In this document: positions 21,658 to 25,822 of the stretch, in pieces
Position numbering within the stretch: the stretch's first letter is position 1
Layout: every line of letters starts with the position of its first letter
Assembly (NCBI GenBank): GCA_017519415.1
Contig: JAFWSI010000064.1
Coordinates: 1 to 42,412, forward strand
Length of the DNA stretch: 42,412 nt
Reading direction: 5' to 3'
From: Ruminococcus sp.
GTDB lineage: Bacteria; Bacillota; Clostridia; Oscillospirales; Ruminococcaceae
Notes under the pieces: model-generated
What the model saw: only the letters and a program-made list of their open reading frames with translations
Database searches by the model: none
Told to the model about the DNA's origin: nothing
Program-made: the position numbers and the translations under genes

Positions 21658-21826
21658 CGATTTTTATAGAATATTGAGAACTGATCTCAACATACTGCAG
21701 ACTTATCACCGGTTTCCGACTTGTGTCAGGTATTTACACAAAGCACATAAAACAATTTATAAAAGCTAAATCCGTAAGACACGCCGCCCGCGCATCTTCC
21801 GGCTTTTCACAAACTCAGTAATATAC

Positions 21827-21970
21827 AGGCAATACCGCACAATGCACACTAAAAACGAGATATATCCCACCTGTTTCAGTTCCGCAGGGCGCACTTTATC
21901 AAGCCAACAAGTTTTTCTTGTCAGCCAGATAAAGATTCGCCAGTGCGAATGTGATATTGAATTTGGCCTG
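21827..21970 (-). mobile_element. End of an insertion sequence: terminal repeat and transposase C-terminus
   Basis: The minus strand encodes AKFNITFALANLYLADKKNL and a TGA at 21899-21901, which looks like the last residues of a DDE-type transposase. About 60 bp further the sequence AGGCAATACCGCAC (21827-21840) equals the terminal inverted repeat of the MITE-like repeats at 24131, 38302, 38671 and 42274. The rest of the IS is gone. It abuts a truncated protease gene. The transposase call is by resemblance only. Confidence 0.45.
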
Positions 21971-22386
21971 CTGTTTTCTCCGAGAGTCGTGCTGACGAAC
22001 CATGCGAACTGCCGCTCGGAAAAATCGGGCAGCTCAGACGCATCGCAGTTATTGGCATCTATGCCCAGCTTGTAAAGCACATCGGTCTCCAGACAGGCCA
22101 TAGCGGAGTATGCCCAGCAGTTATTCGCCTGGTGCTGATTTTTAACGGGAGTTACATAATTCTTCCCGTCAACATCACGCAGATCTAACTTTCTCTGTGC
22201 AGGAGCGGGAACTGGTATTTCCGGGTCATCAACGGTATAGTTAAAAATTGTATCGACCATTGACCTTGCACAGACCGTTACAAGGTCATTGAACTTCTCC
22301 TCATAGCTTTTATTCCCTTCGGGAGCGCCGTCATCGGCGAATGAGGTAAAGGCAGCTGACTGTGCCGTATAGGCCAGCATCATCAC
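21970..22386 (-). pseudogene. Papain-like (C1) cysteine protease, truncated at both ends
   Basis: The frame contains the propeptide-like start and the active-site region of C1 proteases: LDLRDVDGKNYVTPVKNQ, then QANNCWAYSAMACLE with the catalytic cysteine (about residue 89 from 22386), and FSERQFAWF. Similarity stops at about 21970, where an IS end begins, so the His and Asn of the triad are missing. At the 5' end MMMLAYTAQSAAF looks like the second half of a signal peptide without its charged start, and no RBS is present. Another C1 protease, a lipoprotein, is intact at 24476-25822. Confidence 0.7.
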
Positions 22387-22677: not shown

Positions 22678-24132
22678 ATGAACGATGAGAAATGGCGGGA
22701 ACTCACCAGACGGGCGTTAAAGGGCGACAGCTCTGCCTTCGGGGAGCTTTACGAAGCGTCGAAGAAGTCGGTGTACTTCATCTGCCTCAAGATGATCGGC
22801 AATGAGAATGACGCCAAGGACGCGATGCAGAACACCTACCTGACGGCCTATCAGAAGCTCGGCGAGCTTGACGACGGCGCTAACTTCGTAAAATGGGTCA
22901 ACGGTATCGCTGCCAACAAGTGCCGGGAGATGTTCCGCATCCGCAGCGATGACTCTCTGGACGAGAAGGTCGAGGAGGGTGTAGAGTTCCGGGACGAGGA
23001 ATTCATCCCCGAGGACTACATCACCGACAAGGCAAAGCGCAGGATCATAATGCAGATCATCGAGCGGGAGCTCACGGACGTTCAGCGCCAGACTGTGATA
23101 CTCTACTATTACAATCAGCTGACCGTCACGCAGATAAGCCAGATAATGGGCTGCACCGACAGCGCCGTAAAATACCGCCTGTGTACCGCCAGAGACAAGA
23201 TCCGGGAGGCGGTGCTTATCTACGAAAAGGAACACGACGACAGGCTCCACGCTATCATACCCACACCTGTCCTCACCAAGATATTCCGCGCAGAAGCGGA
23301 AGAACTGATCGTACCCGACATACGATCAGCTGCCGTGAATGCTGTATCGAAGTCCTCTGCAAATTCTATTACTGAAGAATTAGGAGGAAATCAAATGAAA
23401 AACGCAGTTATCGGAAAGGTAGTCGCAGGAGTTGCAGCAGGAGCATTGGCAGTAGGAGGTCTGGTATTCGTACTGACCCGAAACAGTGAGCCGGAGAAGG
23501 TAAAGGAAGTTCCCTCTGTTGAGAGCACTGCTGTGAGCGACACAGTCACAAGCGCCCCGGCCTTTGTCCCGGAGGATGTATCCTCACAGGAGGTCTCGGA
23601 GGCTTCTTCCACTGAGGGATCCCAGGCAGCGCAGTTCTCCTTTGAGGGGATGGACTCGTTCAGAGTATCTCTGCCGGAATACAAGGCTATCGTGGTCTAC
23701 TTTGACAAGGAGACCTGGACAAAGAGCGGAGAGTCTGCCGGCAAGAAATGTACTCTGCACAATAATGAGCTGGACTTCGATGTCGAGCTCCGCAACGAGA
23801 CCTGGAAGCTCGCCGATTTCAGCGGTATGGGCGCCGAGGAGGTCTACATAGGCGGCAGCTTCAAGACCCACGTTGAGTATCGCTCCGAGGAATTCGCTAC
23901 TCAGTACCATTGGGAGCTTGCCGAAAAGGAGACCCGGGAGATCAACGACTACACTGTTCCCTCAGCCGCGTCAACACAGGGAGACCGGTACAAGAAGGCA
24001 TACTACTTCATCATCGGAGAGAACCAGGTGCTGGTATATGAATTCATCTGCAATTCAGCCGATAAGGATAACGCAGTCAAGGCTGTGGAGACCCTCTTTG
24101 AGCACTTTTATTATCCGCCCCTCGGGAATTAA
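22678..24132 (+). CDS. ECF sigma factor fused to a transmembrane and extracellular domain
   Basis: A 484-residue protein. Residues 1-180 are an ECF sigma factor: region 2 (AFGELYEASKKSVYFICLK, NDAKDAMQNTYLTAYQKL) and region 4 (LTDVQRQTVILYYYNQLTVT, GCTDSAVKYRLCTARDKI). A linker leads to one transmembrane helix (about 245-265), then a Ser/Thr/Glu-rich spacer and an unrecognised beta-rich extracellular domain (about 325-484). The RBS is GAAAGGAAG. The linker holds a perfect internal SD (AGGAGG, 23382-23387) seven bases before in-frame ATG 23395, so the membrane part may also be made alone. A sensor that tethers or releases its own sigma domain is the likely logic. The stop codon lies in the first bases of a MITE copy. 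Confidence 0.85.
   Translation: MNDEKWRELTRRALKGDSSAFGELYEASKKSVYFICLKMIGNENDAKDAMQNTYLTAYQKLGELDDGANFVKWVNGIAANKCREMFRIRSDDSLDEKVEEGVEFRDEEFIPEDYITDKAKRRIIMQIIERELTDVQRQTVILYYYNQLTVTQISQIMGCTDSAVKYRLCTARDKIREAVLIYEKEHDDRLHAIIPTPVLTKIFRAEAEELIVPDIRSAAVNAVSKSSANSITEELGGNQMKNAVIGKVVAGVAAGALAVGGLVFVLTRNSEPEKVKEVPSVESTAVSDTVTSAPAFVPEDVSSQEVSEASSTEGSQAAQFSFEGMDSFRVSLPEYKAIVVYFDKETWTKSGESAGKKCTLHNNELDFDVELRNETWKLADFSGMGAEEVYIGGSFKTHVEYRSEEFATQYHWELAEKETREINDYTVPSAASTQGDRYKKAYYFIIGENQVLVYEFICNSADKDNAVKAVETLFEHFYYPPLGN
23382..23397 (+). promoter_or_regulatory. Internal ribosome binding site at the sigma/membrane-domain border
   Basis: AGGAGG (23382-23387), seven bases, ATG (23395) in frame, beginning MKNAVIGKVVAGVAAG, a credible start for a signal-anchor protein of 245 residues. 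It is a stronger SD than that of the full-length start. Confidence 0.6.
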
Positions 24133-24307
24133 GGCAACACCGCACGACCCGCGGCTGACGCCTCTGCACGCCATCTGCTTGCCAGCTTTCCGTCATATTA
24201 CCCAAATTCTCCTTGCCGGGCGCCAGCCCGCCTGCGTCGAATTTATGCACTCTGACGGAAAAATTGACTGCGTATCTGACGCACAGGGGTTGTGCGGTAT
24301 TGCCTAA
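24131..24307 (+). repeat. MITE-like repeat, complete copy a
   Basis: About 175 bp with terminal inverted repeats AAGGCAACACCGCACGACC and GGTTGTGCGGTATTGCCT. Internally it carries CATATTACCCAAATTCTCCT and GACGCAGG...GCACTCTGACGG segments shared with the copies at 38302, 38671 and 42274. It is inserted at the stop codon of the sigma gene. It has no transposase. Confidence 0.8.
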
Positions 24308-24475: not shown

Positions 24476-25822
24476 ATGAAGAATATGAAAAAAGCCATCA
24501 CAGTATTTCTTCTTGCAGGTATGCTGCTCCAGAGCGGCTGTGCAGGCACGGAGAGCAGCTCAGAGACGGAAACTACGGCCGCCGCTGCGGTTAGCAACTC
24601 GGCAGCTCCGGTCAATTACGACTACGTCCACGGCGACGACGGATACTATAACCTCGCCGATGAACTCACATATCTGAAAATGCCTTTGCAGACTTCCGGT
24701 ACCTGCTGGCTGCACGCCGCAAGGGCGAGCATAGAGACCGCCTATGAAAAAAGCACAGGCAAGGAGATCAAGCTTACCATTGATGAGCTTCTGGAGGATA
24801 TCTACGGCAGCGAAAAGCAGGACGGCATTTTTATCAAAGAGGGTATAGCCAGAGACGCTATCGGCGGCTATCAGGGATTTGTCACCGAAAGGCTGTCAAG
24901 AGACTGTAAATACGGCGTCACCCTGGACAGCTCAATGCTGATCGACCCCTCCGACCGGGAGGCTGTCAAAAACGCCGTAAAAACAAGGGGCGGCGTTGCG
25001 GTTTCCATCTGCGAAAAAAATGTTAACAACGGAACGTTCGGAAAATACGTGACTTTAAACTACGATCAGCCCGAAGAATATGACCACTATGTTACTATCA
25101 TCGGCTGGGACGACCACTTTCCTAAGGAGTATTTCAAATTACCCGCAGCGGAAGACGGTGCATGGATAACCTACAATTCAAACGTTGCCAGCGGGACCTA
25201 TTACTACATCTCCTACTGCTCGCCCATCGACCACATGGTGAGCCATACGGTCAGCGATGAATATTCAGAGGTGCTAAGCTACGATGCCGGCAACGAAATA
25301 GATGCCTACATCACAACAGGCGACTCCGCCAGGGCCGCAAATGTTTTCCATAAAAAAGGCAAGCTTGCAGCCGTCGGTACCTTCAACGATTTCGACAGTC
25401 AGGACATAAAGATCGAGATCATGTCCGCCGACTTCAAGGATCTGTTATACTCTCAGGACGCTTCCCTTGACTGGCACGGCTACCAGACGGTCAAGCTGAC
25501 TACGCCCGTTGATGTCGAGGACTTCGCTGTCGTTATCACCTACTCAAAGGGCGCACCTGTTGAGGGCGAGAGCATTGATACCGCTGCGGCCTGCTACAAG
25601 ACCTCCATAGAAAAAGGCCAGTCCTTCGTATTTGTTGACGGCAAATGGAAGGATATGTCCGACAGCGACATAAAGACGGCGGTCAGGGCCGAAAAAGGCA
25701 AGCCGGTCTTCTTCAACGAGAAGGGTGCCTGGAGGAACTTCCTGAGCGACAGTGATATGGAGGCGCTGCTCAAAGCGGATTTTGCCCCGGGCAACTGCTG
25801 CATCAAGGCGCTGTTCCTGTGA
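24476..25822 (+). CDS. Lipoprotein papain-like (C1) cysteine protease
   Basis: A 448-residue secreted protein. The signal peptide ends in a lipobox (LLQSGC, lipidated C22), followed by an Ala/Ser/Thr/Glu linker. The protease domain has the C1 residues in order: TSGTCWLHAA (C77), DHYVTIIGWDD (H204) and TYNSN (N234). After about residue 270 a second beta-rich domain follows that I do not recognise. It acts outside the membrane, perhaps on surface proteins or peptides. It is directly downstream of the membrane-linked sigma factor on the same strand but separated by a MITE and its own TATAAT at about 24385-24390. A SigA-type signal there suggests independent expression. Start: ATG 24476 after AGGAG. 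Confidence 0.85.
   Translation: MKNMKKAITVFLLAGMLLQSGCAGTESSSETETTAAAAVSNSAAPVNYDYVHGDDGYYNLADELTYLKMPLQTSGTCWLHAARASIETAYEKSTGKEIKLTIDELLEDIYGSEKQDGIFIKEGIARDAIGGYQGFVTERLSRDCKYGVTLDSSMLIDPSDREAVKNAVKTRGGVAVSICEKNVNNGTFGKYVTLNYDQPEEYDHYVTIIGWDDHFPKEYFKLPAAEDGAWITYNSNVASGTYYYISYCSPIDHMVSHTVSDEYSEVLSYDAGNEIDAYITTGDSARAANVFHKKGKLAAVGTFNDFDSQDIKIEIMSADFKDLLYSQDASLDWHGYQTVKLTTPVDVEDFAVVITYSKGAPVEGESIDTAAACYKTSIEKGQSFVFVDGKWKDMSDSDIKTAVRAEKGKPVFFNEKGAWRNFLSDSDMEALLKADFAPGNCCIKALFL

Follow-up and report, generated by a model that had tools for sequence, protein, structure and literature searches.

Sigma factors and anti-sigma factors are usually separate proteins, and the ratio between them decides the response. 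Factors of group ECF243 carry a fused anti-sigma domain of the FecR type. The chemotaxis protein CheA is made in long and short forms by way of an internal start. ECF groups with regulatory extensions, including IutY (ECF243), SCO4117 (ECF52) and ECF262, are listed in PMC8999054, which also describes the activation of IutY by proteolysis; tethering of a sigma factor is therefore already known in itself. For ECF262, the table in PMC8999054 names an example from Ruminococcus albus and enters the mechanism as 'Others'. A functional in-frame internal start is reported for spaO in PMC13059759.

We analyzed a 42,412-nucleotide stretch of DNA from Ruminococcus sp. (contig JAFWSI010000064.1; hereafter, the window). 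It contains a gene in which a predicted membrane-tethered ECF sigma factor is combined with an internal Shine-Dalgarno (SD) sequence and start codon. The features of this gene and of its two neighbors are as follows.

22678 to 24132, + strand: whole ORF, 484 aa, comprising ECF sigma factor, linker, transmembrane helix and outer domain
22747 to 22938, + strand: sigma-70 region 2, residues 24-87 (Pfam PF04542, above cut-off)
23068 to 23199, + strand: sigma-70 region 4, residues 131-174 (Pfam PF08281, above cut-off)
23245 to 23322, + strand: linker segment RLHAIIPTPVLTKIFRAEAEELIVPDI, residues ~190-215, kept among close fused relatives in alignments
23382 to 23387, + strand: internal SD AGGAGG, read ..A GGA GG.
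23395 to 24132, + strand: predicted second product, 245 aa, comprising the tail MKNAVIGK, helix and outer domain (from the in-frame ATG and its conservation)
23419 to 23475, + strand: predicted transmembrane helix, residues 248-266 (hydropathy)
23623 to 24129, + strand: outer domain, about residues 316-484, with no recognized fold (no Pfam or PDB match)
21766 to 22386, - strand: papain-like gene adjoining the sigma gene
24476 to 25822, + strand: papain-like gene adjoining the sigma gene

The frame runs uninterrupted through 484 codons, and its product is, on the evidence of profile matches, an ECF sigma factor. Sigma70_r2 (32.1 bits, cut-off 24) and Sigma70_r4_2 (36 bits, cut-off 25.7) both exceed the curated Pfam thresholds, and the NCBIfam model TIGR02937 for sigma70-ECF matches at 74.7 bits, with a cut-off of 42.9. 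Region 4 is followed in the same frame by the most hydrophobic 19 residues C-terminal to the sigma part (248-266, mean 2.46), an extension into the membrane that is common to the fused relatives. K247, which adjoins this helix, is invariant in two homologue alignments, and the linker segment RLHAIIPTPVLTKIFRAEAEELIVPDI is a candidate self-inhibitory part. A further 218 residues lie C-terminal to the helix; this region has no Pfam family at E 0.1 and no meaningful match to solved structures (PDB, best E-value 0.62). The spacer between AGGAGG and the in-frame ATG at 23395-23397 (residue 240) is AAATCAA, 7 nt long. The primary start at 22678 has AAAGGA upstream, with a pairing energy of -10.4 kcal/mol, similar to the -10.9 kcal/mol at the internal SD.

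These results bear out the observation made in a preliminary description of this locus, which had recognized an ECF sigma factor joined in one frame to a helix and an unfamiliar outer domain, and had pointed out the AGGAGG seven bases ahead of an in-frame ATG. It had also seen no anti-sigma gene next to the sigma gene, and both adjacent genes indeed match the papain family in Pfam, not anti-sigma factors. As a guess, the sigma factor may control these two genes. The profile match of the gene at 21766-22386 covers only positions 3-44 of 220, and this gene may be truncated.

Two other observations concern the window itself. Between 2075 and 40699, the contig is also present in G720, a genome assigned to a different genus (g95), at 99.5-100% identity over 38.6 kb in the two stretches compared, and it has probably been misassigned to one of the two metagenome bins; a near-identical contig has been deposited as Ruminococcus sp. 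RGIG6843 from sheep rumen. The sequence GTGCGGTATTGCC, together with its one-mismatch form, occurs in seven copies in the window, with 0.87 expected. Two copies form an inverted pair that bounds 172 bases (24133-24304) directly 3' of the sigma gene stop and resembles a small mobile repeat; the others lie at 21828, 38306, 38675, 38854 and 42278. Elsewhere, GTGCGGTATTGCC is found as single copies in a few other loci.

Profile searches recovered fusions of ECF sigma factor, helix and outer part in several families of the order. In an order-wide search of 295 genomes, the open frame was 333-1303 residues long in 27 of the best 28 rows (at least 137 bits) and 197 residues long in the other, L161; below 137 bits, fused and short sigma factors were mixed. 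Judged from these comparisons, the ECF-helix fusion is itself ordinary, old and widespread in the order. The preliminary description had called for homologues in which the two parts are separate genes. We sought such homologues and found none, either on inspecting L161 as a possible split version or on searching 148 genomes with the sensor part alone, which matched only its own genome. The sensor-only search is weak because outer domains diverge very fast, and it would also miss fused relatives. L141, whose frame looked short but has an undetermined base (X) just before its end, was not counted.

The internal start has a restricted distribution among these fusions. Our first set comprised 70 fused ORFs with a clear helix; 3 of 72 loci, L136, L138 and L142, all in long frames, were left out with hydropathy below the threshold, and in L136 and L138 the helix is not preceded by a Met. 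Eight of the 70 carry GGAGG or a longer SD together with an in-frame ATG that precedes the helix by 8-10 codons: the window gene (L143 in the homologue set), L144, L174, L177, L178, L179, L180 and L186. Four more, L139, L140, L049 and L052, have a weaker AAAGG, which is followed by a GC-rich stretch and, five codons ahead of the helix, by an in-frame ATG. We counted these separately, as a possible weaker form of internal start. From genus g89, 11 genes were fetched later, of which 10 carry the site 5-10 codons before the helix, with the mild circularity that the search profile was built from seven carriers. In two other carrier genera (7 and 11 genomes), only the already-known member was found at E 1e-50. 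Among 81 fused homologues, the tally is 18 strong sites, 4 weak sites and 59 genes without an internal start. One of the carriers, L233, has GGAGG seven bases upstream of its ATG. It has a paralogue, L236, on the same strand of G787 contig 1 (24126-24986 and 26132-26995, ~1.1 kb apart by match ends), and both have an internal SD-ATG.

Trees place nearly all strong carriers together. In a 76-row tree of the N-terminal ~215 residues, which leaves out the long-branch rows L162, L163, L187, L217 and L219 (none with an SD), 17 carriers fall within a clade of 19 (SH-aLRT 97) that includes the window gene. Thus, in 17 of the 19 clade members, the gene contains a strong SD and an in-frame ATG, 5-10 codons before the helix. 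The two remaining members, L137 and L234, group with carriers and lack both SD and ATG, so the internal start is dispensable. An earlier tree, made with more care from 70 rows, unites the carriers known at that stage, minus L186, with L137 and the weak-SD group in a clade of 12 (99/90); the weak-SD group lies inside the clade on this tree and outside it, on weak branches, on the 76-row tree. L186 is the one strong carrier outside the clade, and the larger tree places it elsewhere, beside the non-carrier L152. Its SD is in another codon phase: AAAGGAGG is present while encoding Lys-Glu-Ala.

Absence of the internal SD from homologues that keep the fusion had been named in advance, in the preliminary description, among the findings that would refute its proposal. 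Such homologues exist outside the clade, and 59 of the 81 fused homologues have no internal start, but within the clade the start is largely retained. Because it is kept there at 39-53% protein identity to the window gene, the startless fusions map where the internal start occurs and do not refute it. Clade members cannot be aligned over the segment that runs from VPDI, where the conserved linker ends, to the Gly-Gly pair encoded at the SD, and the spacing from SD to ATG ranges from 4 to 10 nt.

Several features look like the result of selection on the RNA. All 17 carriers of the clade use GGA for the first residue of the Gly-Gly pair at the SD, whereas among the remaining Gly-Gly pairs of the 81 ORFs this codon comes first in 58 of 306. 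At less than 70% identity, the count is 13 of 13, with a product of own-ORF GGA frequencies of 1.5e-7. AGGAGG itself is found at this Gly-Gly in 13 of 17 carriers versus 17 of 306 other pairs. In the first 70 ORFs, a strong SD precedes 13 of 709 internal in-frame ATGs, and eight of these 13 are at the internal-start site before the helix; out-of-frame SD-ATG pairs at that site number 0 of 15. A Met stands 4-12 residues before the helix in 11 of the 12 clade rows then known, versus 3 of 58 others (L186 included), and the corresponding p of 2e-9 is not strict, as the rows are related. RNA structure around the ATG is weak (Fisher p 6e-5, 13 genes), with L174 an exception in which it is not reduced (0.49). 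A synonymous-codon test with amino acids held fixed gave combined p values of 0.0025 for exact match and 0.02 for pairing energy in the first eight genes, 0.006 and 0.04 without the window gene, and 0.015-0.31 for single genes; its support is only moderate. Codon choice points to selection on the RNA, and these sequence comparisons, taken together, show the internal start to be under selection in the clade.

Within its own genome alone, the site is only modestly unusual. We sampled 442 kb of the genome, made up of the window and 20 stretches of 20 kb. Of the 334 ORFs in this sample, 5, the window ORF among them, have an internal in-frame AGGAGG-N5-8-ATG, which counts in favor of a strong SD-ATG pair having fallen in the linker by chance. 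Ordered by anti-SD pairing energy, the site comes 16th among the 2012 internal in-frame ATGs of this sample, and genome-wide the pattern has 384 occurrences versus 120 for a reversed control pattern. By conservation, however, the site clearly exceeds chance, and its recurrence in the clade and in the later-fetched g89 genes makes a chance origin hardly credible. Alternatively, the SD-like sequence could act as a pause site: by holding back the ribosome it would let the helix reach the membrane while translation is still under way, and no second product would be made. The position of the SD, always just before the helix, would suit such a role, as would L183 and L197, two genes outside the clade with an SD-like sequence near the helix and no start codon. 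Yet a pause requires no ATG, and an ATG accompanies the SD in each of the 17 carriers of the clade, while the two exceptions lack both; the low RNA structure around the ATG also fits initiation. We therefore regard a pause as unlikely.

Selection could instead act on the protein, with Gly-Gly and Met kept as a hinge or cleavage site. Gly-Gly is retained in 17 clade members, but the codon bias at this pair, the varying distance from Gly to Met and the presence of an SD without Gly-Gly in L186 render this explanation improbable. The preliminary description had also raised the possibility of a fusion that retains the old start of a formerly separate second gene; as a relic, this start would persist unused. 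The internal product would indeed begin like a normal membrane-anchored protein, and turning a TTA ahead of the SD into TAA, by a single base change, would divide the gene in two. Our data do not support this origin: startless fusions are scattered across the order, our weak search for a split version found none, the helix region can be aligned across start-bearing and startless fusions, and an unused start would not retain GGA codons at such divergence. We judge a relic very improbable.

We favor the explanation that one gene gives two products, a tethered sigma factor and a sigma-less sensor, with a probability of about 0.6, because the SD-ATG is conserved in the clade and the GGA codon is chosen at the SD. 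The preliminary description had anticipated two products, and conservation lends this idea support. Initiation at 22678 would yield an ECF sigma factor that its own C-terminal helix and outer domain hold at the membrane. If IutY is a guide, this form would be inactive until a proteolytic cut within or close to the membrane sets the sigma part free. Initiation at 23395, directed by the AGGAGG in the linker, would yield a protein with no sigma part, in which an 8-residue inner tail precedes the helix and outer domain. This short product could insert in the membrane and modulate the tethered sigma factor, sharing with the full-length form a signal, partners or the releasing protease. Such sharing might set a threshold or gain for sigma release, with the ratio fixed by the two start sites. 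Control of the ratio of sigma and sensor, also raised in the preliminary description, is plausible. Because pairing at the internal SD is about as strong as at the primary start, the amount of the short form may equal or exceed that of the full-length form.

Outer domains differ in appearance among clade members, and of ten members scanned only L174 has a Pfam family (DUF6273) above cut-off in this region. A likeness of the outer domain to L136-type fusions was considered and rejected (hhalign probability 0.3%). The module of sigma factor, linker, SD and helix is thus kept while outer domains differ, which suggests that the short form has a general role, such as competing for a signal or releasing protease, or diluting sigma factors in receptor assemblies. 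More tentatively, and at somewhat below even odds, the genes of this clade of Ruminococcus relatives may contain a built-in decoy, in which a bare receptor is made from an internal site about as strong as the primary one and a gene-coded ratio sets the threshold; L186 would be an independent instance. Compared by eye, with ORF starts as the sole guide, the gene neighborhoods of six SD-positive genes had nothing obvious in common. Downstream of the L174 gene lies an ORF (L211:4775-5635, - strand) that encodes collagen-like Gly-Pro-Pro repeats.

The window gene resembles IutY (ECF243) and SCO4117 (ECF52) in joining a sigma factor and a membrane-spanning regulator in one polypeptide, for which tethering until proteolysis has been described or proposed (PMC8999054). 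It differs from IutY in that no fused anti-sigma factor was found, and from SCO4117 in that no zinc finger was found between sigma part and helix (Pfam, E up to 1, for both). The available portion of PMC8999054 makes no mention of an internal start in factors of either type. ECF262, compared by its table entry alone (PMC8999054), is likewise an ECF group with a regulatory extension, exemplified in Ruminococcus. The new part is the internal start, not the fusion; in partial coverage of the literature, by titles and abstract openings, we found no report of an internal start in a tethered sigma factor. A single-gene fusion loses the free ratio of its two parts, and a conserved internal start would restore the tuning of receptor to factor. 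A conserved membrane protein of this kind would escape gene callers that assign a single product to each frame. In having an in-frame internal site from which one gene would give a full-length and a C-terminal form, the window gene is like spaO and CheA; these are parts of secretion and chemotaxis systems, whereas the short form predicted here is a membrane sensor freed of its sigma factor.
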